This document shows positions 14,817 through 63,287 of a DNA stretch of 64,000 nt, piece after piece. Source of the stretch: Rhizopus arrhizus (lineage: Eukaryota; Mucoromycota; Mucoromycetes; Mucorales; Rhizopodaceae); the NCBI GenBank assembly GCA_024220505.1, contig JAKZZE010000008.1:930001-994000 (forward strand), given 5' to 3'. Under the pieces are notes generated by a model. That model searched no databases. It was not told the DNA's origin and was given only the letters and a program-made list of their open reading frames with translations. Made by a program: the position numbers and the translations under genes. Each line of letters starts with the position of its first letter. Within the stretch, counting starts at the first letter, position 1.

Positions 14817-14831
14817 GCCCGTTTAGCACAG
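14817..14831 (+). repeat. tRNA-Thr head copy 1 (target duplication)
   Basis: GCCCGTTTAGCACAG, identical to nucleotides 1-15 of the tRNA-Thr at 63216. It lies between L0 and the 3' end of L1. The first G could also belong to L0. Confidence 0.9.
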
Positions 14832-15029
14832 ATAAAAGATTTTTGTTTATTAAATGGCAAGGAGACGTTACAGTATATGTCTCGCCATGAGGTGCAATAC
14901 ATTTTACAAAAAAAATAAAACAAGATAAAAGAGTAATAAGAGTTAAGAAATAAAAAAACTAGACATAGCTAGAGAAAAAAAGAAAAGGCAAAGTAAATAA
15001 AGAGAAATAAAGGCAGCAATTAACAATTG

Positions 15030-18000
15030 TTAATCTTGTACTGATTCAAAGAACAAATGATCGACTGCACTTGACAGTGATATTGGACGAATCTTGTCCA
15101 AGAAAAGAGAACCAGATGTGTCGATAGACGATCCAACAAATGTGCCTTCGGGAAGGCAAATCTGTTCGATTTCAAGGAGGACTTGACAGACAACAGGCCA
15201 CCAAAGGGACCAACGAGAGAACAGTGCTTCTGATGGATATGCTGGAAGTTTCCTTGGCAACATATTCAGAACATGATCCAAAGGATTGGGCTTGATGTCA
15301 ACAGGCAAGCTTAATCTTTCAGCAACACGGAGACAGGACAAGAGATGAGCACGAGAGGCATGAATCGGACCACAGCTACAGTCGATAGGACGAGCAGGAA
15401 GCCACCCCATACGCCATCGAAGGATGCGACTACGGTCAGAGAGGAGCATTGGGATGAAGAACATACCATCAATGCCAATACTTGGACGACAAGCAGAGAG
15501 AAGGACAGGTGGATCAGGACGATCCAAGATTCGATACAGAAGGTCATTGCGGTAAGCAAGCACACTCTGCTTGACATGGGCATCGGTGGAGAGATGTGCA
15601 AGGCGATCATCAACAGAAGTATACCCACCCGTATACCGAGGGTTCGACCAGAGAGGGTTCTGCTTCAGCAATGCCGGCCATCGGAAACGGTTCTTGATGG
15701 GGGCAGCAGCGACAAAGGGAACCAACTTGGCAAGCAGACAATCATCAGGAAGATGGTGGACACGGACAATCATCTTGAGTACCAAAGTATGGGCCCGTAC
15801 ATGCATCGATGGAGTACTTGTCAAGTGCTTGAACACCGTGGTAGAGGCACGAGGATGACCACCGAACGCCAAACGAAGACACTGATCTTGGGCACGATCC
15901 AATTGTTAAGGATACATAAGATTATAGTCACTTTATTTTAGTAAAAGGAATCATATATGATCCTGAATAATATGTTGACATAACTTGGAATCATTTATAA
16001 CATTATTCCCAACACAGATCAATAAAATACTTTGATTAGATTTTTATATTAAGCTTTATTCATATTAGCTTCACATAGTCAAATAAGATGACATGGTTGT
16101 AATATAGTTTATTAATAATATGAGCATGTTGAATAAGGAATGACGATTACTTACCGGATCATCATTAGTCATGAAAACATTTATTCTGACTGAGATATTA
16201 TTGTTAGCAATGATATCCAATCACTGAACTAAAAGTCTTTATATTCATCCGTACCGTCTCCTTAAATAGTTATCTGAAACCATCCCAATAGCATGATTGA
16301 CGATACAAGCTAGGAACAGGCTAAACTAATAATTAGAAATCGTAATCATCTATTCTGTCAAGTTGATTATAAATCTGTCCTAATTCTTTATCCGTATCAT
16401 GTCTATAAATACTCTCACTTTTTACATGTAGAATTTTTGAATCATAAAATAGTTATCTTAACTTAATAAAGAGATACCAAGTTCTAACAGTATTTCTTTA
16501 TCTTTGATTGCTATATTATATTTACCTAAAACTCCCCTTTCCTAAACACCAATAGAGCCAGTTGCTTTTGTAGAAAGGTACAGATGCACAAACCATACTC
16601 GAATCTAGGTCTAATAAAGATAGTATAGAGACGAGTAGCAGTAAGGCGAGAGAAGCCAGGAGAGCGGATACCGACAGGCAAAAGGAAGCGACGCATAGCA
16701 GAGACAGCAGAGGTAACATTCCGTTGGATCAGCAGACCAGTAGCGATGGTGCCAGTATCATCAAATGGGACGCCGAGATAGTTGAAGGTAGATTGAATGG
16801 GAATGTCATCACCATACAACTTTAGCTGGGGACCACCAAGAGAGAAAGCAGAGTTGAGCACCACACACTTGGCAGGATTCCATCGGTAACCCAAGGAGAA
16901 AGAATGTTCTTCAGCTGCCTTGAGAAGACGAGGCATGACTTCAGGTGCTCCTATAAGGACAACGTCATCAGCGTACAAGAGACAGTTCAACCAGAGGCCA
17001 TCGAATTCACGTTGTGGTTTGGAGCTGTAGTACCTTGCCGAGATTGGTAGTCGAACAGAACGAAGCAGAGCTGGGAGGCTGTTGATGTAGATGGAATACA
17101 AGAATGGCGAAAGGATTGAACCTTGAAGCACACCAGTTCTTGGCCAGAAGACAGGAGAGGTGAAACCAGAGACCAAGACTTCTATACTTACTTTGTCAAA
17201 CAGACATTGGAGTAGACCAAGTAGAGCAGGAGAGATGTAGGTCTCTAGAGCACGCCATATGATTGCTCGATCGACGGTGTCATAAGCAGACTTGATATCT
17301 AAGAAGGCCAAGACAGGAGGTTCACCGTGATGATCGATAGCATGCTGTCGACAGAGCTCATTCAGACAGAGCGCTTGATCCAGAGCACTACGACTATGAC
17401 GGAAGCCGCCTTGGACAGGGTCGAGTGATGGAGCGGTGTCTTCAAGAGTTGTCTGCAAGCACAGTTCAAAGAGCTTTCGCAATACCGATGTCAGGCTGAT
17501 CGGTCGATAGTTTGCTGGTTGCAGTGGATCACCCTTCTTGTAGATCGGGACCACTTGAGCAGTGCACCATGCAGCAGGGACAGCAGACCATATCCAGCAC
17601 AGACGAAAGAGCAAGGTAAGAACAGGGACCAGATCATCAGCAATTGGCAATAGCATCTCTGTTCGTAAGTGATCACAACCTGGAGCCTTGCGACGCGAGA
17701 GACGTTTGAGAAGCGCAGTGCGCACCGTTTCTATATCCACTGGACACGGATCATCTTCAAGACAATGAGGGCCAGAGGGGATCGGTGGTGCATTGTACCT
17801 AGTCGATGGTAATGACGAGCCAGAGAATACTTGCTTCAAGTGATTAGCCATGGTTATAGCCGCAACAGTGGGACCCTCCGGATGGGAGTAAGAAGGAGAC
17901 AATGTGCGGTTGCGTCTAATTCTCTTGATAGTAGCAGTGGTGTCAGACAGCGGACCAGAAGACAAAGTTTCGCAGAATTGCTTCCAAGTAGCACGGCGAC

Positions 18001-19180
18001 GACAGTACAAGGCACTTTTGAACCGATGGGCAGCAACTTCATATTCTTGCCATCGAAGTACTTTGTTGATACCAACGGTTCTTTTCCACTTGCGACGGGC
18101 TTGTTCACGACGGTCAAACAGAGCTTGAAGATCATCAGTCCAGAACCAGGCATTGGCAGAACCACGAGGCTTCTTTGGACCAACAGAGTCATCCAGACAA
18201 GAGTGAATGATGGTAGTCAACTCGTTGGCAAGGAGATCCATGTCGGGTGCTGTGCTATTGGTAGATGATGCATATGTTGTCAAGCATTCACGAAACGGTT
18301 GGATACGATCCCGGAAGAGGTCAACATAGAGGCAGTCAGGCTCGGTCAGTCTACTCAGATTCCATAAACGACGAGGATGAGCAGGTGGAGGCGGTGGTGG
18401 AGGCAGGACACAGGACAACGACACAGGATGATGGTCTGAACCAAGAGAGAGGTCTTCATGTACAAGCATCTTTGGGTTCACCAGTTGCTGTGAACTGAGA
18501 AACAAGTCGATGACACTGTTGCAGTGTTCACCGGTGGTAGCATTGACACGGCCTTGAGCACAATAGGTTGGGATACCATAGGCTAGTTGAGTATTCCAAC
18601 ATGTCATTCCATTCTCCAGGATCCAGCTGAACAACTTGATGCCACGAGTGGTAGTTCTTGAATCACCAAGAAGGTGTTGGTGTCGAGCGTTAAAGTCACC
18701 GCACACAATCATGTTGGTCTGTGATGGATGTGTTTGGTGAGGAAGTCCATCGAGTATATCCATTGCTTCGAGGTCAGAGAGCGACGGCGGTAGATAGGCA
18801 CAGTGAACAAGCAAGGTGGAGACTTGACAGCTGAGCACATAAGGATTGTCAGAGGGAAAGTGAGTGACAGGATAGGGACAATCAGGATTGACAAGCAGAC
18901 TGATGCCCATCTGTCCTCGACTTTGACCCTCAAGCGGTACGCCATAGGTATGGTATTGTTGCCATAAAGTCATAAGCCTGAGTGGAGATAACAACCAGGT
19001 TTCAGTGATAAAAATGAGTGACGATGTAAGGAGCGAATTGGTGGTTTGATCAACAGTGTAGCGATTACAGCCATTGGCATTCCACAGGGTCATAGTAAGC
19101 ATATTGTTGTTTGTACAAGTACGGGTATCTTGGTTGGGCAGAGGCATATTTAAATCTTCAATAGGTGAGACACTCATCAT
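15030..19180 (-). pseudogene. L1 ORF2 (endonuclease/reverse transcriptase), split by solo LTR
   Basis: ORF2 of the LINE: endonuclease and reverse transcriptase. The N-terminal 880 or so residues (16549-19180) hold the endonuclease and the RT with YADD; the C-terminal 290 (15030-15903), with the Cys-His cluster, lie on the other side of the LTR. The frame resumes exactly after removing the LTR and one CCAAT. The start ATGATG overlaps the ORF1 stop. The RT in this truncated form ends soon after the thumb region. Confidence 0.92.
15904..16548 (+). mobile_element. Solo LTR (645 bp) in L1 ORF2
   Basis: Starts TGTTAAGGATACATAAG, ends CCTTTCCTAAACA, with a perfect 5-bp duplication CCAAT (15899-15903 and 16549-16553). 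Same family as 12078-12724. Intact L copies show the empty site at the homologous place in ORF2. Confidence 0.95.
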
Positions 19181-20616
19181 TGGGATGAGGTCGATTCACC
19201 GACATCGAGAGGATCAAGTTCTGTAGTGCTGAATGTGCTATGGATTTCTTCCATCGTGGCATCTTGGGTCGATCCAGTGGTTCTAGCAGCACGGGTAACA
19301 GTAGGTACAACTTCTTTGTACTGATCAAGGGTGATCCAATTCTTCACAAAGAAGGAACGAGCAACAGCAGGGCGGACAGACTCACGGATGTGTTGTAAAG
19401 CACGGACAAGGCGAGCTTGATGTACTTCGGTACACTTGGCAGCACGATCAGATTCAGATAAATCAGCAAACTTGGGATCACGCAGGAGATCAGGGTTCAA
19501 AGGATTGAATCCTTGAATTGGTTCGACCTTGGCTTTGGCAAAGGCAGCAAGCAGATCAGCAGTGTATTCTGTGTGCACCAAAAGAGCAACCACTTGACGG
19601 TCAGGGTAATGTACATCCAGCACACGAGCGTTGTTAATTTTAAGCTTATGTAGCTTGCTACGAAGACTGGATATGGGTTCACGGTATCGACTTGGCAAGT
19701 ACACGTACTCATAGTCATGATGAGCAGCGACAGGGACAAAGCGGCGGTGTATGGCTTCCATTTGACGAGCAGTAGTCTTGCGACGGCGTGATGGTGCCTT
19801 GCTCTTTGGTGCAGGTGCATCCTTACCTTTTGTTGCCACAGCAGCGAAAGAAAGTGGTTCAGTCGATGAAGTCAACGAGGTATTGGGACATGCGTACTTG
19901 GATGCTTCGGTACCTTGAGTGACTTTGGAATCCAGTACCAAGGTGGGGATGGCTTCGGTAGATACCTGGGCTTCAAGTTCTGCTATACGTTGCTGAGCAA
20001 TGTCCAAGTCGGTGCGCAAACGTTTGTTTTCTGCCATGACTTCTTCAAGAGCGTTCAAACGTTGGTTTAAAAAGCGTGTTTGATCTTGTTGCTGCTTTTG
20101 ATATACTATAAACCAATCTGGAATACCAGATTGGGAGCTAAGATCAAGTATTTGAGTATCGCATAGAGCTAAAGGGTTTACTTCCCTGGTAAATAATGGT
20201 TTGAGTGCGGAGTCATTCTGACTAAATGAAAAGTCTACAGGCTTGTCTAAACTGAGCTTGAAAGAAGAGGTGCTAGGATTCAAGTTCTTGTTCTTGGTCT
20301 TGAGGATTTGACTACGGGTAGTAGGCTTGGTGATGGTCTGTTTAACATTCGTAGGAACGTAAGGTGGAGTTCTGTCAGCAATTGTGCGCTTGCTGGGAAT
20401 TTCAATTGGTGTGCCCATAGTGAGTGCGGACTGAACAGTTGGTGCGGGTTGAACAAATGGTCCGGGTTGGACAACTGGTGTGCCCTTAGGGTGTGCGGAC
20501 TGAACAATTGTTTCGGGTTGAACAACTTGTCCGGGCTGAACAAGTGGTGCGGACTGGACATGTGGTGCTGGCACGGACGTGCCATTGCCGCTCTGATCTT
20601 GAGAATTTTTTTCCAT
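19177..20616 (-). CDS. L1 ORF1 protein (LINE nucleic-acid-binding partner)
   Basis: 479-residue ORF1 of the LINE, expected to bind the element RNA. I chose ATG 20616 (MEKNSQ) because all L copies share it; here the frame happens to stay open further upstream. Parts in order: a proline/glutamine-rich repeat of VQPG/VQSA-type units (about residues 15-75), a coiled coil with heptads (QTRFLNQRLNALEEVM ... RIAELEAQ), a basic Arg/Lys patch (SRRRKTTARQ) and a conserved globular part (YVYLPSRYR ... RVLDVHYPDRQVVALLVH) that is also in M1 ORF1. The stop overlaps the ORF2 start by 4 nt (ATGA). Confidence 0.85.
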   Translation of the reverse strand: MEKNSQDQSGNGTSVPAPHVQSAPLVQPGQVVQPETIVQSAHPKGTPVVQPGPFVQPAPTVQSALTMGTPIEIPSKRTIADRTPPYVPTNVKQTITKPTTRSQILKTKNKNLNPSTSSFKLSLDKPVDFSFSQNDSALKPLFTREVNPLALCDTQILDLSSQSGIPDWFIVYQKQQQDQTRFLNQRLNALEEVMAENKRLRTDLDIAQQRIAELEAQVSTEAIPTLVLDSKVTQGTEASKYACPNTSLTSSTEPLSFAAVATKGKDAPAPKSKAPSRRRKTTARQMEAIHRRFVPVAAHHDYEYVYLPSRYREPISSLRSKLHKLKINNARVLDVHYPDRQVVALLVHTEYTADLLAAFAKAKVEPIQGFNPLNPDLLRDPKFADLSESDRAAKCTEVHQARLVRALQHIRESVRPAVARSFFVKNWITLDQYKEVVPTVTRAARTTGSTQDATMEEIHSTFSTTELDPLDVGESTSSQ

Positions 20617-20843
20617 GAGAGATCTCGAAATGTCAATATTCAAACGATTCGTTTTTTGGATATAGCTTGACGAATACGCTTCTATTTGGGTTGTAGTTTG
20701 TAATAAAGTTGTTTTGGATGTTGTATCTATCTTGCTAATGATGGATGGATGCGATTTAACAGATGGATGTAAAAGATATTTGTGCGGATAAACGTTTAAC
20801 CATGTGGATGTTGGTGTAACGGTTAAGAACACGAAAGAAAGGC

Positions 20844-20858
20844 GCCCGTTTAGCACAG
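20844..20858 (+). repeat. tRNA-Thr head copy 2 (target duplication)
   Basis: GCCCGTTTAGCACAG between the 5' tip of L1 and the 3' end of L2. Confidence 0.95.
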
Positions 20859-21054
20859 ATAAAAGATTTTTGTTTATTGAATGGCAAGGAGACGTTACAG
20901 TATGTGTCTCGCCATGAGGTGCAATAACTTTTAGAAAAGATAAAACAAGATAAAAGAGTAATAAGAGTTAAGAAATAAAAAAACTAGACATAGCTAGAGA
21001 AAAAAAGAAAAGGCAAAGTAAATAAAGAGAAATAAAGGCAGCAATTAACAATTG

Positions 21055-24000
21055 TTAATCTTGTACTGATTCAAAGAACAAATGATCGACTGCACTTGAC
21101 AGTGATATTGGGCGAATCTTGTCCAAGAAAAGAGAGCCAGATGTGTCAATAGATGACCCAACAAATGTGCCTTCGGGAAGGCAAATCTGTTCGATTTCAA
21201 GGAGGACTTGACAGACAACAGGCCACCAAAGGGACCAACGAGAGAACAGTGCTTGAGATGGATATGCTGGAAGTTTCCTTGGCAACATATTCAGAACATG
21301 ATCCAAAGGATTGGGCTTGATGTCAGCAGGCAAGCTTAATCTTTCAGCAACACGGAGACAGGACAAGAGATGAGCACGAGAGGCATGAATCGGACCACAG
21401 CTACAGTCGATAGGACGAGCAGGGAGCCACCCCATACGCCATCGAAGGATGCGACTACGGTCAGAGAGGAGCATTGGAATAAAGAACATAGCATCAATGC
21501 CAATACTTGGACGACAAGCAGAGAGAAGGACAGGTGGATCAGGACGATCCAGGATGCGGTGAAGAAGGTCAGTGCGGTAAGCGAGCACACTCTGCTTGAG
21601 ATGGGCATCAGTAGAGAGATGCGCGAGGCGATCATCAACCGAAGTATACCCACCTGTATACTGAGGGTTTGACCATAGAGGGTTTTGCCTCAGCAATGCC
21701 GGCCATCGGGAACGGCTCTTGATCGGTGCAGCAGCGACAAAGGGAACCAACTTGGCAAGCAGACAGTCATCAGGAAGGTGATGGACACGAATGATCATCT
21801 TGAGTACCAAAGTATGGGCCCGTACATGCATTGATGGGGTGCTTGTCAAGTGCTTGAACACCGTGGTAGAGGCACGAGGATGACCACCGAATGCCAAGCG
21901 AAGACACTGATCTTGAGCACGATCCAGTAGAGCCAGTTGCTTTTGTAAAAAGGTGCAGATGCACAAACCATACTCGAATCTAGGTCTAATAAAGATAGTA
22001 TAGAGACGAGTAGCAGTAAGGCGAGAGAAGCCAGGAGAGCGGATACCGACAGGCAAAAGGAAACGACGCATAGCAGAGACAGCAGAGGTAACATTCCGTT
22101 GGATCAGCAGACCAGTAGCGATGGTGCCAGTATCATCAAATGGGATGCCAAGATAGTTGAAGGTAGATTGGATGGGAATGTCATCACCATACAACTTGAG
22201 TTGGGGACCACCAAGAGAGAAAGCAGAGTTGAGCACCACGCACTTGGCAGGATTCCATCGGTAACCCAAGGAGAAAGAATGTTCTTCAGCTGCCTTGAGA
22301 AGACGAGGCATGACTTCAGGTGCTCCTATAAGGACAACGTCATCAGCGTACAAGAGACAGTTCAACCAGAGGCCATCGAATTCACGTTGTGGGTTTGAGC
22401 TGTAGTATCTTGCCGAGATTGGTAACCGAACAGAACGAAGCAGAGCTGGGAGGCTGTTGATGTAGATGGAATACAAGAATGGTGACAGGATTGAACCTTG
22501 AAGCACACCAGTTCTTGGCCAGAAGGCAGGAGAGGTGAAACCAGAAACCAGGACTTCTATACTTACTTTGTCAAACAGACATTGGAGTAGTCCAAGTAGA
22601 GCAGGAGAGATGTAGGTCTCTAGAGCACGCCATATGATTGCTCGGTCAACGGTATCATAAGCAGACTTGATATCCAAGAAAGCCAAGACAGGCGGTTCAC
22701 CGTGATGATCAATAGCATGCTGTCGACAGAGCTCATTCAGACAGAGCGCTTGATCCAGAGCACTACGACTATGACGGAAGCCGCCTTGGACAGGGTCGAG
22801 TGATGGAGCGGTGTCTTCAAGAGTTGTCTGCAAGCACAGTTCAAAGAGCTTTCGCAATACCGATGTCAGGCTGATCGGTCGATAGTTTGCTGGTTGCAAT
22901 GGATCACCCTTCTTGTAGATCGGGACCACTTGAGCAGTGCACCATGCAGCAGGGACAGCAGACCATATCCAGCACAGACGAAAGAGCAAGGTCAGGACAG
23001 GGACCAGATCATCAGCAATCGGTAATAACATCTCTGTTCGTAAGTGATCACAACCTGGAGCCTTGCGACGTGAGAGACGTTTGAGAAGCGCAGTGCGCAC
23101 CGTTTCTATATCCACTGGACACGGATTATCTTCAAGACAATGAGGACCAGAGGGGATCGGTGGTGCATTGTACCTAGTCGATGGTAAGGACGAGCCAGAG
23201 AATACTTGCTTCAAGTGATTAGCCATGGTTGTAGCCGCAACAGTGGGACCCTCCGGATGGGAATAAGAAGGAGACAATGTGCGGTTGCGTCTAATTCTCT
23301 TGATAGTAGCAGTGGTGTCAGACAGCGGACCAGAAGACAGAGTTTCGCAGAATTGCTTCCAAGTAGCACGGCGACGACAGTACAAGGCACTTTTGAACCT
23401 ATGGGCAGCAACTTCATATTCTTGCCATCGAAGTACTTTGTTGATACCAACGGTTCTTTTCCACTTGCGACGGGCTTGTTCACGACGGTCAAACAGAGTT
23501 TGGAGATCATCAGTCCAGAACCAGGCATTGCTAGAACCACGAGGCTTCTTTGGACCAACAGAGTCATCCAGACAAGAGTGAATGATGGTAGTCAACTCGT
23601 TGGCAAGGAGATCCATGTCGGGTGCTGTGCTATTGGTAGATGATGCATATGTTGTCAAGCATTCACGAAACGGTTGGATACGGTCCCGGAAGAGGTCAAC
23701 ATAGAGGCAGTCAGGCTCGGTCAGTCTACTCAGATTCCATAAACGACGAGGATGAGCAGGTGGAGGCGGTGGTGGAGGCAGGACACAGGACAATGACACA
23801 GGATGATGGTCTGAACCAAGAGAGAGGTCTTCATGTACAAGCATCTTTGGGTTCACCAGTTGCTGTGAACTGAGAAACAAGTCGATGACACTGTTGAAGT
23901 GTTCACCGGTGGTAGTATTGACACGGCCTTGAGCACAATAGGTTGGGATACCATAGGCTAGTTGAGTATTCCAACATGTCATTCCATTCTCCAAGATCCA

Positions 24001-24555
24001 GCTGAACAACTTGATGCCACGAGTGGTAGTTCTTGAATCACCAAGAAGGTGTTGGTGTCGAGCGTTAAAGTCACCGCACACAATCATGTTGGTCTGTGAT
24101 GGATGTGTTTGGTGAGGAAGCCCATCGAGTATATCCACTGCTTCGAGGTCAGAGAGCGATGGCGGTAGATAGACACAGTGAACAAGCAAGGTGGAGACTT
24201 GACAGCTGAGCACATAAGGATTGTCAGAGGGAAAGTGAGTAACTGGATAGGGACAATCAGGATTGACAAGCAGACTGATGCCCATCTGTCCTCGACTTTG
24301 ACCCGCAAGCGGTACGCCATAGGTATGGTATTGTTGCCATAAAGTCATAAGCCGAAGTGGAGACAATAGCCAGGTTTCAGTAATAAAAATGAGTGACGAT
24401 GTAAGGAGCGAATTGGTGGTTTGATCAACAGTGTAGCGATTACAGCCATTGGCATTCCATAGGGTCATAGTAAGCATATTGTTGTTTGTACAAGTACGGG
24501 TATCTTGGTTGGGCATAGGCATATTTAAATCTTCAATAGGTGAGACACTCATCAT
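21055..24555 (-). CDS. L2 ORF2: endonuclease-reverse transcriptase (1166 aa)
   Basis: The enzyme of target-primed reverse transcription: it nicks DNA and copies element RNA from the nick. Residues 30-255 form an apurinic-endonuclease-like domain (WNANG 33-37, ITET 58-61, GDFN 161-164, SDHH 248-251). A run of seven prolines follows at about 262. The reverse transcriptase spans about 490-770 (RKAPGCDHLRTEM, NYRPISLTSVLRKLFE, FLDIKSAYDTVDR, GVLQGSILSPFLYS, YADD near 735). A Cys-His cluster (CSCGPIHASRAHLLSC) lies near 1060. It has all expected catalytic motifs and no stops, so it could be active. Start ATGATG overlaps the ORF1 stop. Confidence 0.95.
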   Translation of the reverse strand: MMSVSPIEDLNMPMPNQDTRTCTNNNMLTMTLWNANGCNRYTVDQTTNSLLTSSLIFITETWLLSPLRLMTLWQQYHTYGVPLAGQSRGQMGISLLVNPDCPYPVTHFPSDNPYVLSCQVSTLLVHCVYLPPSLSDLEAVDILDGLPHQTHPSQTNMIVCGDFNARHQHLLGDSRTTTRGIKLFSWILENGMTCWNTQLAYGIPTYCAQGRVNTTTGEHFNSVIDLFLSSQQLVNPKMLVHEDLSLGSDHHPVSLSCVLPPPPPPPAHPRRLWNLSRLTEPDCLYVDLFRDRIQPFRECLTTYASSTNSTAPDMDLLANELTTIIHSCLDDSVGPKKPRGSSNAWFWTDDLQTLFDRREQARRKWKRTVGINKVLRWQEYEVAAHRFKSALYCRRRATWKQFCETLSSGPLSDTTATIKRIRRNRTLSPSYSHPEGPTVAATTMANHLKQVFSGSSLPSTRYNAPPIPSGPHCLEDNPCPVDIETVRTALLKRLSRRKAPGCDHLRTEMLLPIADDLVPVLTLLFRLCWIWSAVPAAWCTAQVVPIYKKGDPLQPANYRPISLTSVLRKLFELCLQTTLEDTAPSLDPVQGGFRHSRSALDQALCLNELCRQHAIDHHGEPPVLAFLDIKSAYDTVDRAIIWRALETYISPALLGLLQCLFDKVSIEVLVSGFTSPAFWPRTGVLQGSILSPFLYSIYINSLPALLRSVRLPISARYYSSNPQREFDGLWLNCLLYADDVVLIGAPEVMPRLLKAAEEHSFSLGYRWNPAKCVVLNSAFSLGGPQLKLYGDDIPIQSTFNYLGIPFDDTGTIATGLLIQRNVTSAVSAMRRFLLPVGIRSPGFSRLTATRLYTIFIRPRFEYGLCICTFLQKQLALLDRAQDQCLRLAFGGHPRASTTVFKHLTSTPSMHVRAHTLVLKMIIRVHHLPDDCLLAKLVPFVAAAPIKSRSRWPALLRQNPLWSNPQYTGGYTSVDDRLAHLSTDAHLKQSVLAYRTDLLHRILDRPDPPVLLSACRPSIGIDAMFFIPMLLSDRSRILRWRMGWLPARPIDCSCGPIHASRAHLLSCLRVAERLSLPADIKPNPLDHVLNMLPRKLPAYPSQALFSRWSLWWPVVCQVLLEIEQICLPEGTFVGSSIDTSGSLFLDKIRPISLSSAVDHLFFESVQD

Positions 24556-26027: not shown

Positions 26028-26264
26028 GAGAGATCTTGAAATGTCAATATTCAAACGATTCGTATTTTGGATATAGCTTGACGAATACGCTTCTATTTGG
26101 GTTGTAGTTTGTAATAAAGTTGTTTTGGATGTTGTATCTATCTTGCTAATGATGGATGGATGCGATTTAACAGACGGATGTAAAAGTTATTTGTGCGGAT
26201 AAACGTTTAACCAGGTGCAAATTGGTGTAACGGTTAAGAACACGAAAGATGACAGTTGCTAATA

Positions 26265-29800: not shown

Positions 29801-29808
29801 GAAAAACG

Positions 29809-49997: not shown

Positions 49998-50044
49998 TTT
50001 TTTAAAATTAATCATCCTTCTGGTTCCTACCCTGGTAAACTGCT

Positions 50045-54400: not shown

Positions 54401-54979
54401 AGGTTCAATGACAGAAATATGATCATAGATCTTCCGAAGGATACTGCAGTTATGGTTAGATTACCAGGACGGACTAGTAAGTTGTCACCTCTTTATGAAG
54501 GGCCTTACATTGTCGTTCGAAAAACTCAAGGTGGTTCCTATGTCTTAAAAGATGAGCAAAATGAACTGTTACATCGTGAATATGTCCCATCAGAACTTAA
54601 GATAGTCTCTATTGACGAAACAGCTATAGAAGATGAATACTATGAAGTTGAGGATATTAGAGATCACAGAGGCGGTCCAGGACAAAGAGAGTACCTTGTA
54701 AAATGGGCTGGTTATGGTGAAAGAGAGAATACGTGGGAAAAAGCATCATCCTTCTCCAGCACAGTACCCATTGATAAATATTGGCTTAAGAGAAAAAAGT
54801 TGAAGGAATTAGAGCAAGCAAGAAAGCAAAAGATGATAGCTAACGAAATAGACTACACTAAAAAGACTTCTGCTAGACCTAATGTGACTGAAGAAAACAA
54901 GAATTATAAAAGAAAGGACATGGTACAAGATAGCACAGTCCTTAGAAAAAGTAAAAGAATAAGAAACAATAGAAACTAA
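51428..54979 (+). CDS. Gypsy-2 pol: protease, RT, RNase H, integrase, chromodomain
   Basis: Open from just after the gag TGA, with no good ATG near the protease, so it is probably made as a gag-pol fusion. Counting from 51470: protease KIDTGSDITC near 17; RT with YVDD near 350; RNase H ATDASQYGVGAVL near 498; integrase zinc module (HTFGHFG ... CIECQRH) near 708-745; catalytic IGIDLLG near 775, SDNG near 835 and SESAV near 870, with a D-35-E spacing; and a C-terminal chromodomain (VEDIRDHRG ... REYLVKWAGYG ... NTWEKASSF) near 1060-1105. Chromodomains direct such elements to histone-marked heterochromatin. All motifs are intact. Confidence 0.95.
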   Translation, partial: NKKTEDEDTNPFKLLTPILIEGKKLIGKIDTGSDITCISKICLNNKLNIDKVNSVNGSLNFLSSDNNCKRIGQTDPLTLTYMNNISFKHSFEVVNFNETMKQEFDVLLGTDVLGKMNIGLTGVAYKYPGNEDDYSNRLKEDAQFLNMNFDANNEIEPNNSPYGTEDQQKQFMAYIQSAIDDNQNIPAGSFCTVPESVVELPMEKGAKSYKRQYPIAHRQMPELEEQINEWLEAGIIKENRANTSFNSPLLMVPKKDENNEITSHRVCLDVRGINKLIPDVVYPVPKIRSIFDNLAGGEVFTKIDLKNAYNSFLVAPKDQHKLSFQFKNRTYTFQGCCFGLKTVTAIFCKVMKILFADMDFIETYVDDCVIKGTAENHASNVKKVIERLTSVNLKINVKKCSWYQRSIYLLGFVVESGGIIKVDPRRLTNIDSWPIPRNKKEVMRLMGIVSYMRDFIPLISRVAAPIDRLRNDPDVENNWTQEHTDAFIALKEILKSKTLLHTPDLSKKFYVATDASQYGVGAVLTQRDELNRTLHIAFASKSLSPSQRKWNTTKRELYAVVFALEKYREFLWGNKFELRTDHKALMYLHTQEQANPMMIGWLETLLDFNFDVIHIQGILNQLPDLLSRLYEPCLNNEFMLGGGDAAQKENKKEKKENKSKNKNKIKVKRQTNSTAKRHNLIYSQDKKLNVLAVKIKNKKFANNPTTDYMTPPPEKRARLLEDAHTFGHFGSTSIVEQLHSQGLHWNNIYKDATETIKSCIECQRHNVSKKGYHPLKNILAYLPFDHIGIDLLGPLPVTANENVYVLVMIDVCTRYIILRPLKNKQSDTVAKELIKIFGDYGIPKIIQSDNGREFKNSLMHSLSKHLGIDRRYSTAFHSRGNGVSESAVKTTLNTIRKMVNSNSNDWDDVLPIVQLASNYKIRHRSKSAPFSLMFARRLNSFEDYSDQSIADKIPNRPVTEQELIERTDRMYQIVFPAIRERTQKIIEEANKRFNDRNMIIDLPKDTAVMVRLPGRTSKLSPLYEGPYIVVRKTQGGSYVLKDEQNELLHREYVPSELKIVSIDETAIEDEYYEVEDIRDHRGGPGQREYLVKWAGYGERENTWEKASSFSSTVPIDKYWLKRKKLKELEQARKQKMIANEIDYTKKTSARPNVTEENKNYKRKDMVQDSTVLRKSKRIRNNRN

Positions 54980-55136
54980 AAAAAAAAAAAAAAAAAAAAA
55001 AAGTTCATGTAGCAGAGCGGCCGCTGACTTCATAAACTTGCTGAGCATCAAGATACATAAATTAACCAATAAGAAAATAACATTTAGTATCTGCATGAAT
55101 GCCGACCTGACTATTGTCAAGTCTGGGGGAGGATAA

Positions 55137-55596
55137 TGTTGTAAACATAGTTATTTTCTATATGATATCAGTTGTATTAAAATAAATAACGATACACAAA
55201 AGATTAAACTATGATTGAACAATTCCACACTTTTCCAAATTTAGAACAATAAGATCAATATCTGTCATCCTAGAGAGTCTAATCAATTGTCAACCCCAAA
55301 AGTAATTAGATCAAAGTTAATTGACTGGTTATTATTTCTATTGTTCAACTTCAGATGCATATATTAGAACATCGACAAGCTTTAGCTTAATCATTGGTTC
55401 TTCAGCACGACATCGTGACCGAGTCTATATCTTTTATATCTACGCTCACAAAGAATATAAATAGATGCCAACTTTTTATCCATAAAGCGAGGCCTTTTCG
55501 CAATATAAAGAAATCTGCAATAAAGAAGGATTTTAATTTTATATTGCTGCTATTGTTTTTTTGTTTAATTTTTTATTTAATCTTGCGATTAAAACA
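55137..55596 (+). repeat. Gypsy-2 3' LTR
   Basis: 460 bp, same as the 5' LTR by eye. The polypurine tract GGGGGAGGATAA lies just before it (55125-55136). Confidence 0.96.
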
Positions 55597-57098
55597 CTTT
55601 ACAAAGAAGGAACGAGCAACAGCAGGGCGAACAGACTCACGGATGTGCTGTAAAGCACGGACAAGGCGAGCTTGATGAACTTCGGTGCATTTGATAGCAC
55701 GGTCAGATCCAGATAAATCAGCAAACTTGGGATCACGCAAGAGATCAGGGTTCAAAGGATTGAATCCTTGAATTGGTTCGACCTTGGCTTTAGCAAAGGC
55801 AGCGAGCAGATCAGCAGTGTATTCTGTATGCACCAAAAGAGCAACCACTTGACGGTCAGGATAATGAACATCCAGCACACGAGCGTTGTTGATTTTGAGC
55901 TTGTGGAGCTTGCTGCGCAGACTGGATATAGGTTCACGGTAACGACTTGGCAAGTACACATACTCATAGTCATGATGAGCAGCGACAGGGACAAAGCGGC
56001 GGTGAATAGCTTCCATTTGACGAGCAGTAGTCTTGCGACGGCGTGTAGGTGCTTTGCTCTTTGGTGCAGGTGCGTCCTTACCTTTTGTAGCCACAGCAGC
56101 AAAAGAAAGTGGTTCAGTCGATGAAGTCAACGAGGCACTTGGGATAGCGTACTTGGATGCTTCTGTGCCTTGGGGCTCCTTTGTATCAAGAGTAAATGCT
56201 GGGATAGCATCAGTACAGATTTGGGCTTCAAGTTCTGCAATGCGCTGTTGTGCCAGGTCCAAGTCGGTGCGCAAACGTTTGTTTTCAGTCATGACTTCTT
56301 CAAGAGCATTCAAACGTTGGTTCAAAAAGCGGGTTTGATCTTGTTGCTGCTTTTGATATACTATAAACCAATCTGGAATACCAGATTGAGAGCTAAGATC
56401 AAGTATTTGAGTATCGCATAGAGCTAAAGGGTTCACTTCCCTGGTAAATAAAGGTTTGAGTGCGGAGTCATTCTGACTAAATGAAAAGTCTACAGGCTTG
56501 TCTAAACTGAGCTTGAAAGAAGAGGTGCTAGGATTCAAGTTCTTGTTCTTGTTCTTGTTCTTGATGATCTGACTACGGGTAGTAGGCTTGGTGATGGTCT
56601 TTTTAACATTCGTAGGAACGTAAGGTGGAGTTCTGTCAGCAATTGTGCGCTTGCTGGGAATTTCAATTGGTGTGCCCATAGGGTGTGCGGGCTGAACATG
56701 TGGTCCGGGTTGGACAACTGGTGTGTCCTTAGGGTGTGCGGGCTGAACAGCTGGTCCGGGTTGAACAGCTGGTCCGGTCTGGACAAGTGGTCCGGTCTGG
56801 ACACGCGGTGCGGACTGGACAAGTGGTGCCGGCTCGGACGTGCCATTGCCGCTCTGATCTTGAGAATTTTTTTCCATGAGAGATCTTGAAATGTCAATAT
56901 TCAAACGATTCGTATTTTGGATATAGCTTGACGAATACGCTTCTATTTGGGTTGTAGTTTGTAATAAAGTTGTTTTGGATGTTGTATCTATCTTGCTAAT
57001 GATGGATGGATGCGATTTAACAGATGGATGTAAAAGTTATTTGTGCGGATAAACGTTTAACCAGGTGCAAATTGGTGTAACGGTTAAGAACACGAAAG

Positions 57099-57803
57099 TG
57101 ACAGTTGCTAATATGTATGTTATGTCTAGTTTCGCTATACGGTGAAGTGATAACAGAAACCAATTAATAGAAGACTGTAAAGACTATTAATGTACAATAA
57201 CAACAAAGTTAACAATATAAACTAGTTCTTGACTTCAATTGCTTGAACGTGCAAAAAGAATTTACTCGGCACCCAAAATTAATTTTAGCGGGAAGAAAGC
57301 CTTTCGTTTATTACTTTACAACAATAGATACTTTGGAATACATATTAATATAAAGGTAATTGGGGAAAATATACAATTGTAAAGAGGATTATGGTGATTT
57401 TTGATAAATAAAGTATATGATGTATCAATTGAGTATTCGTCTTCATGTTGATTTTAATGGTGTTCTTTTCTGTTTAGTGTGCTGGCACATTGGGTGAATA
57501 ATGCGTCCAGAGATCGTCTTCTTGATGTATCCTATGAGGGATAGAAAATAATAGGTAAGAAAAATAATGTCGGCCAATTGTGACGTGTGTCTTTTCAATT
57601 CCCGATGCGGTGAAGCTGATTATTTTCCTTTCCCCTTATTTTCTTTTACATTTTCTTCAATAACGTCTGTTAGAGTTATCCAACCACACCGAAAAGCATA
57701 CCATTCGAATCGCCATGAAAAGGAGTATCTTTTGAATACAAAATAAGCTTTAAAAATCAAAAAGGAATCAAAGGCGATCATCGACCAAAATCCGACTTCG
57801 TCA
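57099..57803 (+). mobile_element. Solo LTR (705-bp family), clean copy
   Basis: TGACAGTTGC ... ACTTCGTCA with a 4-bp duplication AAAG (57095-57098 and 57804-57807). Second copy of the LTR at 26250-28561. It sits 10 bp upstream of a tRNA head, inside the 5' tip of L4. It differs from the first copy by only a few bases and shows the empty site of Tc1-D. Confidence 0.9.
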
Positions 57804-57813
57804 AAAGAAAGGC

Positions 57814-57828
57814 GCCCGTTTAGCACAG
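57814..57828 (+). repeat. tRNA-Thr head copy 6 (target duplication)
   Basis: GCCCGTTTAGCACAG between the displaced 5' tip of L4 and the 3' end of L5. Confidence 0.95.
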
Positions 57829-58033
57829 ATAAAAGATTTTTGTTTATTGAATGGCAAGGAGACGTTACAGTATGTGTCTCGCCATGAGGTGCAATAAATT
57901 TTAGAAAAGATAAAACAAGATAAAAGAGTAATAAGAGTTAAGAAATAAAAAATAAAAATAAAAACTAGACATAGCTAGAAAAAAAGAAAAGGCAAAGTAA
58001 ACAAAGAGAGATGTTGACGGCAATTAACAATCG

Positions 58034-61000
58034 TTAATCTTGTACTGATTCAAAGAACAAATAATCGACTGTACTTGACAGTGGCAGTGGGCGAATCTTG
58101 TCCAAGAAAAGAGAGCCAGATGTGTCGATAGACGATCCAACAAATGTGCCTTCGGGAAGGCAAATCTGTTCGATTTCAAGGAGGACTTGACAGACAACAG
58201 GCCACCAAAGGGACCAACGAGAGAACAGTGCTTGAGATGGATATGCTGGAAGTTTCCTTGGCAACATATTCAGAACATAATCCAAAGGATTGGGCTTGAT
58301 GTCAACAGGTAGATTCAATCTTTCAGCAACACGGAGACAGGACAAGAGATGAGTACGAGAGGCATGGATGGGACCACAGCTACAGTCGATAGGACGAGCA
58401 GGAAGCCACCCCATACGCCATCGAAGGATGCGACTACGGTCAGAGAGGAGCATTGAGATGAAGAACATCGCATCAATGCCGATACTTGGACGACAAGCAG
58501 AGAGGAGGACAGGTGGATCAGGACGATTCAAGATTCGATGCAGAAGGTCATTGCGGTAAGCGAGCACACCCTGCTTGACATGGACATCAGTAGAAAGATG
58601 TGCAAGGCGATCATCAACAGAAGTATACCCACCTGTATACTGAGGGTTCAACCATAGAGGGTTTTGCCTCAGCAATGCCGGCCATCGGAAACGGTTCTTG
58701 ATCGGTGCGGCAGCGACAAAGGGAACCAACTTGGCAAGCAGACAATCATCAGGAAGATGGTGGACACGGACAATCATCTTGAGTACCAAAGTATGGGCCC
58801 GCACATGCATCGATGGAGTACTTGTCAAGTGCTTGAACACCGTGGTAGAGGCACGAGGATGACCACCGAATGCCAAACGAAGACACTGATCTTGGGCGCG
58901 ATCCAGTAGAGCCAGTTGCTTTTGCAAAAAGGTGCAGATGCACAAACCATACTCGAATCTAGGTCTAATGAAGATAGTGTAGAGACGAGTAGCAGTAAGG
59001 CGAGAGAAGCCAGGAGAGCGGATACCGACAGGCAAAAGGAAGCGACGCATAGCAGAGACAGCAGAGGTAACATTCCGTTGGATCAGCAGACCAGTAGCGA
59101 TGGTGCCAGTATCATCAAATGGGACGCCGAGATAGTTGAAGGTAGATTGAATGGGAATGTCATCACCATACAACTTTAGCTGGGGACCACCAAGAGAGAA
59201 AGCAGAGTTGACCACCACACACTTGGCAGGATTCCATCGGTAACCCAAGGAGAAGGAGTGTTCTTCAGCTGCCTTGAGAAGACGAGGCATGACTTCTGGA
59301 GCACCTATAAGGACAACGTCATCAGCATATAGTAGACAGTTCAACCAGAGGCCATCGAATTCACGTTGTGGATTTGAGCTGTAATATCTTGCCGAGATTG
59401 GTAATCGAATAGAACGAAGCAGAGCTGGGAGGCTGTTGATGTAGATGGAATACAAGAACGGTGACAGGATTGAACCTTGAAGCACACCAGTTCTTGGCCA
59501 GAAGGCAGGAGAGGTAAAACCAGAAACCAAGACTTCTATACTTACTTTGTCAAACAGACATTGGAGTAGTCCAAGTAGAGCAGGAGAGATGTAGGTCTCT
59601 AGAGCACGCCATATGATTGCTCGATCAACGGTATCATAAGCAGACTTGATATCCAAGAAGGCCAAGACAGGAGATTCACCGTGATGATCAATAGCATGCT
59701 GTCGACAGAGCTCATTCAGACAGAGCGCTTGATCCAGAGCACTACGACTATGACGGAAGCCGCCTTGGACAGGGTCGAGTGGTGGAGCGGTGTCTTCAAG
59801 AGTTGTCTGCAAGCACAGTTCAAAGAGCTTTCGCAATACCGATGTCAGGCTGATCGGTCGATAGTTTGCTGGTTGCAGTGGATCACCCTTCTTGTAGATT
59901 GGGACCACTTGAGCAGTGCACCATGCAGCAGGGACAGCAGACCATATCCAGCACAGACGAAAGAGCAAGGTCAGGACAGGAACCAGATCATCAGCAATTG
60001 GCAATAGCATCTCTGTTCGTAAGTGATCACAGCCTGGAGCCTTGCGACGTGAGAGACGTTTGAGAAGTGCAGTGCGCACCGTTTCTATATCCACTGGACA
60101 CGGATCATCTTCAAGACAATGAGGACCGGAGGGGATCGGTGGTGCATTGTACCTAGTCGATGGTAAGGACGAGCCAGAGAATACTTGCTTCAAGTGATTA
60201 GCCATGGTTGTAGCCGCAACAGTGGGACCTTCCGGATGGGAATAAGAAGGAGCCAGTGTGCGATTGCGTCTAATTCTCTTGATAGTAGCAGTGGTGTCAG
60301 ACAGCGGACCAGAAGACAAAGTTTCGCAGAATTGCTTCCAAGTAGCACGACGACGACAGTACAGGGCACTTTTGAACCGCTGGGCAGCAACTTCATATTC
60401 TTGCCATCGAAGTACTTTGTTGATACCAACAGTTCTTTTCCACTTGCGACGGGCTTGTTCACGACGGTCAAACAGAGCTTGAAGATCATCAGTCCAGAAC
60501 CAGGCATTGCCAGAACCACGAGGCTTCTTTTGGCCGACAGAGTCATCCAGACAAGAATGAATGATGGAGGTCAACTCGTTGGCAAGGAGATCCATATCGG
60601 GTGCTGTGTTATTGGTAGATGATGCATATGTTGTCAAGCATTCACGAAACGGTTGGATACGGTCCCGGAAGAGGTCAACATAGAGGCAGTCAGGCTCGGT
60701 CAGTCTACTCAGATTCCACAAACGACGAGGATGAGCAGGTGGTGGCGGTGGTGGAGGCAGGACACAGGACAATGATACAGGATGATGGTCTGAACCAAGA
60801 GAGAGGTCTTCATGTACAAGCATCTTTGGATTCACCAGTTGTTGTGAACTGAGAAACAAGTCGATGACACTGTTGAAGTGTTCACCGGTAGTAGCATTGA
60901 CACGGCCTTGAGCACAATAGGTTGGGATACCATAGGCTAGTTGAGTATTCCAACATGTCATTCCATTCTCCAGGATCCAGCTGAACAACTTGATGCCACG

Positions 61001-61534
61001 AGTCGTAGTTCTTGAATCACCAAGAAGGTGTTGGTGTCGAGCGTTAAAGTCACCGCACACAATCATGTTGGTCTGTGACGGATGTGTTTGGTGAGGAAGC
61101 CCATCGAGTATATCCATTGCTTCGAGGTCAGAGAGCGATGGCGGCAGATAGACACAGTGAACAAGCAAGGTAGAGACTTGACAGCTGAGCACATAAGAAT
61201 TGTCAGAGGGAAAGTGAGTAACTGGATAGGGACAATCAGGATTGACAAGCAGACTGATGCCCATCTGTCCTCGACTTTGACCCTCAAGCGGTACGCCATA
61301 GGTATGGTATTGTTGCCATAAAGTCATAAGCCGAAGTGGAGACAATAACCAAGTTTCAGTAATGAAAATGAGTGACGATGTAAGGAGCGAATTGGTGGTT
61401 TGATCAACAGTGTAGCGATTACAGCCATTGGCATTCCACAGGGTCATAGTAAGCATATTGTTGTTTGTACAAGTACGGGTATCTTGGTTGGGCATAGGCA
61501 TATTTAAAGCTTCAATGGGTAAGACACTCATCAT
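58034..61534 (-). CDS. L5 ORF2: endonuclease-reverse transcriptase (1166 aa)
   Basis: Protein identical, as far as I can compare, to L3 ORF2, with all catalytic motifs. Together with its place beside an intact tRNA target this makes it the best candidate for an active element in the window. Confidence 0.95.
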   Translation of the reverse strand: MMSVLPIEALNMPMPNQDTRTCTNNNMLTMTLWNANGCNRYTVDQTTNSLLTSSLIFITETWLLSPLRLMTLWQQYHTYGVPLEGQSRGQMGISLLVNPDCPYPVTHFPSDNSYVLSCQVSTLLVHCVYLPPSLSDLEAMDILDGLPHQTHPSQTNMIVCGDFNARHQHLLGDSRTTTRGIKLFSWILENGMTCWNTQLAYGIPTYCAQGRVNATTGEHFNSVIDLFLSSQQLVNPKMLVHEDLSLGSDHHPVSLSCVLPPPPPPPAHPRRLWNLSRLTEPDCLYVDLFRDRIQPFRECLTTYASSTNNTAPDMDLLANELTSIIHSCLDDSVGQKKPRGSGNAWFWTDDLQALFDRREQARRKWKRTVGINKVLRWQEYEVAAQRFKSALYCRRRATWKQFCETLSSGPLSDTTATIKRIRRNRTLAPSYSHPEGPTVAATTMANHLKQVFSGSSLPSTRYNAPPIPSGPHCLEDDPCPVDIETVRTALLKRLSRRKAPGCDHLRTEMLLPIADDLVPVLTLLFRLCWIWSAVPAAWCTAQVVPIYKKGDPLQPANYRPISLTSVLRKLFELCLQTTLEDTAPPLDPVQGGFRHSRSALDQALCLNELCRQHAIDHHGESPVLAFLDIKSAYDTVDRAIIWRALETYISPALLGLLQCLFDKVSIEVLVSGFTSPAFWPRTGVLQGSILSPFLYSIYINSLPALLRSIRLPISARYYSSNPQREFDGLWLNCLLYADDVVLIGAPEVMPRLLKAAEEHSFSLGYRWNPAKCVVVNSAFSLGGPQLKLYGDDIPIQSTFNYLGVPFDDTGTIATGLLIQRNVTSAVSAMRRFLLPVGIRSPGFSRLTATRLYTIFIRPRFEYGLCICTFLQKQLALLDRAQDQCLRLAFGGHPRASTTVFKHLTSTPSMHVRAHTLVLKMIVRVHHLPDDCLLAKLVPFVAAAPIKNRFRWPALLRQNPLWLNPQYTGGYTSVDDRLAHLSTDVHVKQGVLAYRNDLLHRILNRPDPPVLLSACRPSIGIDAMFFISMLLSDRSRILRWRMGWLPARPIDCSCGPIHASRTHLLSCLRVAERLNLPVDIKPNPLDYVLNMLPRKLPAYPSQALFSRWSLWWPVVCQVLLEIEQICLPEGTFVGSSIDTSGSLFLDKIRPLPLSSTVDYLFFESVQD

Positions 61535-62988
61535 TGGGATGAGGTCGATTCACCAACATCGAGAGGATCAAGTTCTGTAGTGCTGAAGGTATCGTGGATT
61601 TCTTCCATCGTGGCGTCTTGAGTTGATCCAATGGTTTTAGCAGCACGGGTAACAGTAGGCACAACTTCTTTGTACTGATCAAGGGTGATCCAGTTCTTTA
61701 CAAAGAAGGAACGAGCAACAGCAGGGCGAACAGACTCACGGATGTGCTGCAATGCACGGACAAGGCGAGCTTGATGAACTTCGGTACACTTGACAGTACG
61801 GTCAGATCCAGACAAATCAGCAAACTTGGGATCACGCAAGAGGTCAGGGTTCAAAGGATTGAATCCTTGAATAGGTTCGACCTTGGCTTTAGCAAAGGCA
61901 GCGAGCAGATCAGCGGTGTATTCTGTGTGCACCAAAAGAGCAACCACTTGACGGTCAGGGTAATGTACATCCAGTACACGAGCGTTGTTGATCTTAAGCT
62001 TATGTAGCTTGCTACGAAGACTGGATATAGGTTCACGGTAACGACTTGGCAAGTACACGTACTCATAGTCATGATGAGCAGCGACAGGGACAAAGCGGCG
62101 GTGTATGGCTTCCATTTGACGAGCAGTTGTCTTGCGACGGCGTGATGGTGCCTTGCTCTTTGGTGCAGGTGCATCCTTACCTTTTGTTGCCACAGCAGCG
62201 AAAGAAAGTGGTTCAGTCGATGAAGTCAACGAGGTATTGGGACATGCGTACTTGGATGCTTCGGTACCTTGAGTAACTTTGGAATCCAGTACCAAGGTGG
62301 GGATGGCTTCGGTAGATACCTGGGCTTCAAGTTCTGCAATGCGCTGTTGTGCCAGGTCCAAGTCGGTGCGCAAACGTTTGTTTTCGGCCATGACCTCTTC
62401 AAGAGCATTCAAACGTTGGTTCAAAAAGCGGGTTTGATCTTGTTGCTGCTTTTGATATACTATAAACCAATCTGGAATACCAGATTGGGAGCTAAGATCA
62501 AGTATTTGAGTATCGGGTAAAGCTAAAGGGTTCACTTCCCTGGTAAATAATGGTTTAATTGCGGAGTCATTCTGACTAAATGAAAAGTCTACAGGCTTGT
62601 CTAAACTGAGCTTGAAAGAAGAGGTGCTAGGATTCAAGTTCTTGTTCTTGGTCTTGAGGATTTGACTACGGGTAGTAGGCTTGGTGATGGTCTTTTTAAC
62701 ATTCGTAGGAACGTAAGGTGGAGTTCTGTCAGCAATTGTGCGCTTGCTGGGAATTTCAATTGGTGTGCCCATAGTGAGTGCGGACTGAACAGTTGGTGCG
62801 GCTTGAACAAGTTGTCCGGGTTGGATAACTGGTGTGTCCTTAGGGTGTGCGGGCTGAACAGCTGATCCGGGTTGAACAGCTGGTCCGGTCTGGACAAGTG
62901 GTCCGGTCTGGACACGCGGTGCGGACTGGACAAGTGGTGCCGGCTCGGACGTGCCATTGCCGCTCTGATCTTGAGAATTTTTTTCCAT
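61531..62988 (-). CDS. L5 ORF1 protein (485 aa)
   Basis: Same as L3 ORF1, including the arrangement of N-terminal proline repeats. ATG 62988; ATGA overlap with ORF2. Confidence 0.87.
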   Translation of the reverse strand: MEKNSQDQSGNGTSEPAPLVQSAPRVQTGPLVQTGPAVQPGSAVQPAHPKDTPVIQPGQLVQAAPTVQSALTMGTPIEIPSKRTIADRTPPYVPTNVKKTITKPTTRSQILKTKNKNLNPSTSSFKLSLDKPVDFSFSQNDSAIKPLFTREVNPLALPDTQILDLSSQSGIPDWFIVYQKQQQDQTRFLNQRLNALEEVMAENKRLRTDLDLAQQRIAELEAQVSTEAIPTLVLDSKVTQGTEASKYACPNTSLTSSTEPLSFAAVATKGKDAPAPKSKAPSRRRKTTARQMEAIHRRFVPVAAHHDYEYVYLPSRYREPISSLRSKLHKLKINNARVLDVHYPDRQVVALLVHTEYTADLLAAFAKAKVEPIQGFNPLNPDLLRDPKFADLSGSDRTVKCTEVHQARLVRALQHIRESVRPAVARSFFVKNWITLDQYKEVVPTVTRAAKTIGSTQDATMEEIHDTFSTTELDPLDVGESTSSQ

Positions 62989-63215
62989 GAGAGATCTTGA
63001 AATGTCAATATTCAAACGATTCGTATTTTGGATATAGCTTGACGAATACGCTTCTATTTGGGTTGTAGTTTGTAATAAAGTTGTTTTGGATGTTGTATCT
63101 ATCTTGCTAATGATGGATGGATGCGATTTAACAGATGGATGTAAAAGTTATTTGTGCGGATAAACGTTTAACCAGGTGCAAATTGGTGTAACGGTTAAGA
63201 ACACGAAAGAAAGGC

Positions 63216-63287
63216 GCCCGTTTAGCACAGTGGTAGTGCGTCAGTCTTGTAAACTGAAGGTCGGTTGTTCAATCCAGCCAACGGGCA
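63216..63287 (+). tRNA. tRNA-Thr (anticodon UGU), intact
   Basis: 72 nt including discriminator A. Acceptor GCCCGTT pairs with AACGGGC (7/7). D-stem GCAC/GTGC, anticodon stem TCAGT/ACTGA with loop CTTGTAA (anticodon TGT), T-stem GGTTG/CAGCC with loop TTCAATC. No intron, no encoded CCA. The A-box (TAGCACAGTGG) spans the LINE insertion point after nucleotide 15. Its original 5' flank has been replaced by the 5' tip of L5. A T-run terminator lies downstream. Confidence 0.97.

Follow-up and report, generated by a model that had tools for sequence, protein, structure and literature searches.

LINEs inserted within tRNA genes of Rhizopus arrhizus, with probable regeneration of the target

Mobile elements that are specific to tRNA genes are already known, both among non-long terminal repeat (non-LTR) retrotransposons, as in the NeSL clade, and among DNA transposons that use the A box, such as Dada. 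Here, we analyze 64,000 nucleotides (nt) of the mucoralean fungus Rhizopus arrhizus (assembly GCA_024220505.1, contig JAKZZE010000008.1, positions 930,001 to 994,000; hereafter the window), in which long interspersed nuclear elements (LINEs) of two families, L and M, are joined to a tRNA-Thr(UGU) gene and to repeated copies of its first 15 nt, the tRNA-Thr head. The NeSL clade includes non-LTR families specific to a tRNA gene, namely NeSL-1_TV at tRNA-Pro, LIN15_SM at tRNA-Arg, and LIN25_SM at tRNA-Glu (PMC4640811). L and M share this kind of specificity, but the NeSL work concerns elements with a restriction-like endonuclease, whereas that of L and M is of the apurinic/apyrimidinic (AP) type; the comparison with the NeSL families is by target gene only (PMC4640811). 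In dictyostelids, non-LTR elements are likewise tied to tRNA genes, with TRE5 and NLTR-B inserting ~50 bp upstream, TRE3 ~100 bp downstream, and NLTR-A 2–6 bp upstream (PMC5006619). These sites lie outside the gene, whereas the junctions described here lie inside it, at one base of the A box, and not at TRE-type positions (PMC5006619). Dada DNA transposons, several lineages of which target tRNA nt 8–13, resemble the present elements in using the same A-box region at several tRNA species, but they encode a DDE transposase, make a short duplication (nt 8–13), and leave tRNA genes disrupted rather than remade (PMC8869645, PMC3706591).

The reading that we favor, with a probability of about 0.9, is that AP-endonuclease LINEs insert by target priming at a single base of the internal promoter (A box) of tRNA genes and in doing so regenerate the gene. 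One-base precision by target-primed reverse transcription is also characteristic of the R1 and R2 LINEs of ribosomal DNA, and the R1 endonuclease is of the AP type as well; unlike the elements here, however, R1 and R2 disrupt the rRNA unit, which their target duplication leaves unrestored. Phages and integrative and conjugative elements (ICEs) that integrate at tRNA genes do leave a whole gene copy, as here, but they rely on recombinases and carry part of the tRNA gene in their own DNA, whereas in Rhizopus the 5′ part would be regenerated by duplication of host sequence. An earlier note on this DNA, made from the sequence alone, had named the Dictyostelium TRE elements as known tRNA-linked LINEs and knew of no case with this within-gene, self-repairing arrangement. 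Specificity for a tRNA gene has itself been published for the NeSL clade (PMC4640811), while a full-text literature search, with most subscription papers and Repbase outside its reach, returned neither mucoralean LINEs in tRNA genes nor a self-repairing LINE radiation. The phrases “inside tRNA” and “within tRNA” are absent from the available text of a review on Pol III-targeted retrotransposons (PMC5911963), and two Mucorales genome papers, in the parts available, mention LINEs and tRNAs without connecting them (PMC5604411, PMC4133162).

All seven copies of the head, GCCCGTTTAGCACAG, that the earlier note had placed in the window are present there without a mismatch (7/7), and no further copy was found in the window with up to two mismatches allowed, where 0.06 chance matches are expected. 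ARAGORN identifies a single tRNA in the window, tRNA-Thr(UGU) at 63216–63287, and GCCCGTTTAGCACAG corresponds to its first 15 bases. The gaps between the heads are occupied by six minus-strand LINEs, five L and one M, which bears out the earlier description of six LINEs in one orientation followed by an intact tRNA gene at 63216. The features of the array, with their open reading frames (ORFs) and any long terminal repeat (LTR) insertions, are as follows.

14817–14831, plus strand: tRNA-Thr head (nt 1–15), outermost copy in the window; exact match.
14832–20843, minus strand: L element with ~0.6 kb of inserted sequence; ORF2 frame 16526–19180 shortened (blastn against the innermost L; ORFs).
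20844–20858, plus strand: tRNA-Thr head (nt 1–15); exact match.
20859–35191, minus strand: L element, body 20859–26249 and final 10 bases of the 5′ tip 35182–35191, split by 8.9 kb of other transposons.
35192–35206, plus strand: tRNA-Thr head (nt 1–15); exact match.
35207–40594, minus strand: whole L element; ORF1 38910–40394, ORF2 35413–38913.
40595–40609, plus strand: tRNA-Thr head (nt 1–15); exact match.
40610–45660, minus strand: whole M element; ORF1 44490–45461, ORF2 40879–44490.
45661–45675, plus strand: tRNA-Thr head (nt 1–15); exact match.
45676–57813, minus strand: L element interrupted in ORF1 by an LTR retrotransposon (49538–55596) and in the tip by a 705-bp LTR-like piece (57099–57803).
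57814–57828, plus strand: tRNA-Thr head (nt 1–15); exact match.
57829–63215, minus strand: innermost whole L element; ORF1 61531–63015, ORF2 58034–61534 (AP-type endonuclease and reverse transcriptase).
63216–63287, plus strand: intact tRNA-Thr(UGU), the presumed regenerated target (ARAGORN; 100% identical to three others in the genome).

Only the L copies at 35207–40594 and 57829–63215, two of the five, are whole and uninterrupted, and they are 100.0% identical to each other. The other three carry ~0.6, 8.9, and 6.8 kb of inserted sequence, which accounts for the irregular spacing of the heads.

Heads and element 3′ ends were sought as exact matches throughout the genome (50.26 Mb in 41 contigs). 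This search returned 29 tRNA-Thr heads in four arrays, 18 followed by L, seven by M, and four opening intact genes. Full matches to tRNA-Thr(UGU) number four, each 100% identical and each at the inner end of one array; ARAGORN was run on all four loci. The earlier note had proposed asking whether every L 3′ end abuts tRNA-Thr nt 15, and had named a majority of L copies away from such heads as one result that would speak against it. An independent search for L 3′ ends yielded 18, all of which adjoin a tRNA-Thr head, and all four tRNA-Thr(UGU) genes found bear arrays.

The tRNA-Thr gene is thus supported as the target of L, but the wider pattern is not specific to it: M also occupies tRNA-Cys, and relatives occupy tRNA-Lys, -Phe, -Met, -Gly, -Gln, and -Asn. 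The 23 exact M 3′ ends comprise six at Thr heads, 14 at the tRNA-Cys head GAGGGATTAGCTCAG, one at a mutated Cys head, and two without a tRNA head. Exact tRNA-Cys heads also number 23, with 18 joined to M (14 to an exact M end and four to variants) and five opening tRNA-Cys at array ends; three of these five were confirmed by ARAGORN, and the other two were read over 33–38 bases only. A third family, K, has an ORF2 62% identical to that of L (among the five ORF2s listed). Its 15 exact 3′ ends lie at tRNA-Lys (two), tRNA-Phe (three), and tRNA-Met heads (five, one of them with five extra bases at the junction), at GCCTGCTTGGCTCA (one) and GCCTTCTTGGCTCA (two), and at two places without a head. 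Tallied over exact 3′ ends, the elements are site-specific, with tRNA heads at 18/18 ends for L, 21/23 for M (including the mutated head), and tRNA-like heads at 13/15 for K (including the copy with extra bases). For K, complete tRNA genes were confirmed at two Lys copies, one Phe copy, and one Met copy. The heads GCCTTCTTGGCTCA, GCCTGCTTGGCTCA, GGCTTCTTGGTTTA, GACAATTTGACCGAG, and GGTTTCTT resemble tRNA starts and are candidates for which no whole gene was read; behind GCCTGCTTGGCTCA, the continuation is tRNA-like over the stretch read.

Further families occupy tRNA-Gly(UCC), where the element is M-like, tRNA-Gln(UUG), where it is L-like (two 3′ junctions and one gene read), and tRNA-Asn(GUU), where it belongs to another family (one copy read). 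Two more 3′ ends of the Asn-type family (contigs C7 and C23:4238) are preceded by ATCTT, and no tRNA was identified there. The 5′ sides at C22:668362, C7, C23:4238, and C20 have no tRNA at the expected place, and the 5′ side at C19 shows another head joined to an M variant. The junctions counted here do not include the 3′ junctions at C40:1054243, C29:366688, and C40:176516 or those of the families at C23:705611, C29:324192, and C35:209602. Judged by coordinates alone, 6 of 52 ORF2 matches outside the Thr arrays have an opposite-strand tRNA 1.2–1.6 kb upstream, compared with 0.03 expected; two more have one at 3.3 and 6.8 kb, the 6.8-kb case being the following element at a tRNA that the count already includes. 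No same-strand tRNA lies within 18 kb of the 52 among those listed. These counts draw on 63 scored tRNAs of 2878 candidates and on ORF2 lists of 40 of 1281 and 38 of 1216 candidates.

In principle, the 15-mer could be a captured tRNA fragment that belongs to the LINE rather than a target duplication, and its identity at all 29 places is what such a fragment would show, although the search was for exact copies. M, however, carries the Thr head in Thr arrays and the Cys head in Cys arrays, and K bears the head of its host tRNA gene wherever that gene was read. These head swaps rule the model out, and we give it practically no weight.

Within the arrays, the 3′ end of each LINE adjoins an orphan tRNA head. 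The 5′ end meets the next head, with no more than a few additional bases between them, or, in the innermost LINE, the whole tRNA gene on the opposite strand. Apart from the K copy with five extra bases, junctions of L, M, and K copies at heads are exact to one base. The base that follows the head is A in L and T in M, as in the intact tRNA-Thr gene; this T belongs to M, because M at tRNA-Cys keeps it although the Cys gene continues with C. At the other side, the flanks before nt 1 differ in 16 of the 25 elements of the four arrays and match over 1 to 15 bases in the remaining nine, mostly where two L tips face each other. Since they differ in 16 elements at the base before the head, the duplication is bounded at nt 1, and the bases ahead of it belong to the element tip, as the earlier note had stated. 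As read from these junctions, the duplicated stretch at tRNA-Thr is nt 1 to 15. A start at nt 1 applies to the L, M, K, Gly, and Gln junctions read and fails at the one tRNA-Asn copy read.

The last base before the presumed nick is A14 in the K, Gly, and Gln junctions, and L and M join one base later; A14 is invariant in tRNAs. The bases shared ahead of this point are T[AG]GCTCA in K heads and TTAGC[AT]CAG in M heads. The 5′ tips vary right at nt 1 (e.g., ggc, ggcc, ggccc, gag, and aag). A tip of the form GAAAGAAA[AG]G[CT] near tRNA nt 1, found in the four arrays and at L043, L047, L049, and L059, is common to L, M, K, and the Gln family, whose ORF2s are 41–71% identical; different tips are present at the tRNA-Asn copy and next to the C12 head. 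At the tRNA-Phe junction of L061 (C3), the first eight tRNA bases, GCGGGTAT, are doubled ahead of the gene, perhaps by a slip at the start of second-strand synthesis. L048 (C1) and L085 (C32) contain an identical tRNA-like antisense sequence ending in GACAAACACCCACACCT directly left of two different heads, perhaps a short interspersed nuclear element that has a front part derived from a tRNA and shares these targets.

In the mechanism that we propose, the endonuclease would nick the sense strand of the tRNA gene within the A box; the nick would follow nt 15 in the case of L and M and nt 14 in that of K and the Gly and Gln families. The freed 3′ end would prime cDNA synthesis from the 3′ end of the LINE RNA, and the antisense strand would be cut opposite nt 1, with fill-in duplicating nt 1–14 or 1–15. 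With its target restored, the element could strike the gene repeatedly. A whole target exists at the innermost position only, so that each new insertion is expected to adjoin the tRNA and to displace older copies outward; the result would be head-to-tail arrays ordered roughly by age. Related families of this genome, with ORF2s ~41–71% identical, would have spread over several tRNA species through the shared A-box sequence. Damaged elements do lie farther from the tRNA (25 elements; within-array permutation p = 0.0097; plain Spearman 0.46, p = 0.02). An element was scored as damaged if it had gained over 200 bases, contained a stop, or gave a broken ORF2 alignment; 5′ truncation did not enter this score.

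The arrays could alternatively have arisen by tandem duplication, in which a single insertion was followed by unequal crossing over at the 15-mers or LINEs that multiplied the unit of LINE plus head. Head-to-tail order, single orientation, and the two L copies in the window at 100.0% would fit such a process, and some exchange or conversion may have occurred. L and M alternate irregularly, however, the 5′ tips differ right at nt 1, and two copies are 5′-truncated and joined straight to a head (the innermost L on C28 and an M of 3.7 kb on C4); the same kind of junction also recurs at other tRNA species on many contigs. We rejected tandem duplication as the origin of the arrays on these grounds and consider it very improbable. 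The truncated copies, the alternation, and the variable tip bases instead argue for target-primed insertion.

Several points weigh against this preferred reading. Mutated heads and 3′ ends escape an exact-match search. An additional L body at about C39:2027820–2031889 has lost 1.3 kb at its 3′ side and has no 3′ end to score. Two of the 23 M ends lack a tRNA head and are preceded only by CTCAG or TTCAG, and two of the 15 K ends lack one and are preceded by CCTCA or ATCCA. At the tRNA-Asn copy, the 3′ junction follows nt 7, and the flanks match over 12 bases that begin 5 bases upstream of the gene, which suggests, on the thin evidence of one copy, a stagger of ~12–15 bases rather than a cut set by the mature 5′ end. 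No empty tRNA-Thr(UGU) site for comparison was found in the genome. By itself, the length of inserted sequence is not significantly correlated with rank (Spearman 0.28, p = 0.17), and a rank-2 copy in the window is interrupted. Finally, we infer both nicks from the junctions: the first would fall on the sense strand after nt 15, as standard target-primed reverse transcription requires given the element orientation, and the second would cut the antisense strand across from nt 1.

The off-target copies bear on a further alternative, in which the RNA polymerase III (Pol III) apparatus (TFIIIB/TFIIIC) would steer integration, a model proposed for Dictyostelium TRE5, with little role for the sequence at the nick. 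That every confirmed target is a tRNA gene agrees with such steering, as do the LTR-like ends in the window, whose position 10 bp upstream of nt 1 would suit elements guided by Pol III. The one-base-exact junctions of L, M, and K at heads, with the one K exception of five extra bases, do not, and three of the four off-target copies have CTCAG, TTCAG, or CCTCA at the junction, pointing to direct reading of the sequence (the fourth has ATCCA). We therefore consider Pol III steering unlikely in this strong form; a weaker form, in which Pol III factors mediate approach and the endonuclease selects the base, is compatible with target-primed insertion at the A box. As the off-target copies retain only these short motifs, the A-box end is probably read by the endonuclease itself. 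Taken together, the interpretation of the earlier note is supported and extended by these analyses.

L and M encode ORF2 proteins of 1166 and 1203 amino acids, respectively, which are 41% identical; their ORF1 proteins are 32% identical over the aligned part. Pfam detects Exo_endo_phos_2 and RVT_1 in both L (3.9e-15 and 2.4e-25) and M (6.7e-11 and 8e-24), and the order of the two domains, with the endonuclease ahead of the reverse transcriptase, identifies them as LINEs with an AP-type endonuclease. Other LINE hallmarks are present as well, including the target-site duplication, shared 3′ ends, and two 5′-truncated copies among 25. No further ORF2 domain was found by Pfam, with no dedicated model for restriction-like endonucleases used. 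The best solved relative is human LINE-1 ORF2p (2.3e-13), with R2 near (1.7e-12), a ranking by match scores. Relatives in other fungi were compared as proteins, many of them without an organism name, and 323 of 7992 scored candidates matched at E ≤ 0.001. The closest named relatives among the matches listed come from Rhizopus delemar (77%, partial protein), followed by R. microsporus, Mucor, Lichtheimia, and Absidia, and also Umbelopsis. One scan of IMG/VR returned no relatives. A midpoint-rooted tree of 26 proteins (L, M, and 24 of 120 listed relatives) places the two elements in separate parts, one uniting L with proteins of R. delemar, R. microsporus, and Mucor, and the other uniting M with proteins of R. 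delemar, R. stolonifer, and Mucor. L and M may have reached the same tRNA-Thr base independently or retained an old A-box habit.

The window also contains other transposons. The nested complex at 26250–35181 has an LTR element with 505-bp LTRs at its tRNA side and includes a transposase with DDE_3 and HTH_Tnp_Tc3_2 domains (26472–27431). The LTR retrotransposon in the L ORF1 (49538–55596) has identical 460-bp LTRs and a chromodomain, and the 705-bp LTR-like piece at 57099–57803 is flanked on both sides by AAAG. LTR-like ends, starting with TGACAGTTGC and ending in CA, lie inside LINE tips 10 bp from tRNA nt 1 (26250–35191 and 57099–57813), and comparable CA ends occur ahead of heads at other loci; this position suggests that LTR elements insert close to the tRNA on its upstream side, as Ty3 does. 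A Transposase_21 (tnp2) reading frame lies at 11138–12118.

A broader joint reading, which we put forward tentatively as a possibility, is that of a mucoralean LINE radiation that lives by tRNA-gene regeneration. The A box, ending in A14, would serve as a shared address for hopping between tRNA species; the 5′ tip, which becomes the new upstream region of the tRNA, may be kept by selection for the Pol III start; and the tRNA may act as a divergent promoter of the innermost, only active LINE. If this is true, the arrays would be datable records of retrotransposition and, if they grow at one end, an ordered history of insertions. A parasite that restores its own target would never exhaust it and would do little lasting damage there, so that even low-copy genes, such as the four tRNA-Thr(UGU) genes found, would become permanent safe harbors. 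These elements could be regarded as a eukaryotic LINE counterpart of phages and ICEs, which keep tRNA genes whole. Related families with different tRNA addresses would also provide a natural series on how LINE endonucleases read their targets, which bears on tools for precise gene insertion.

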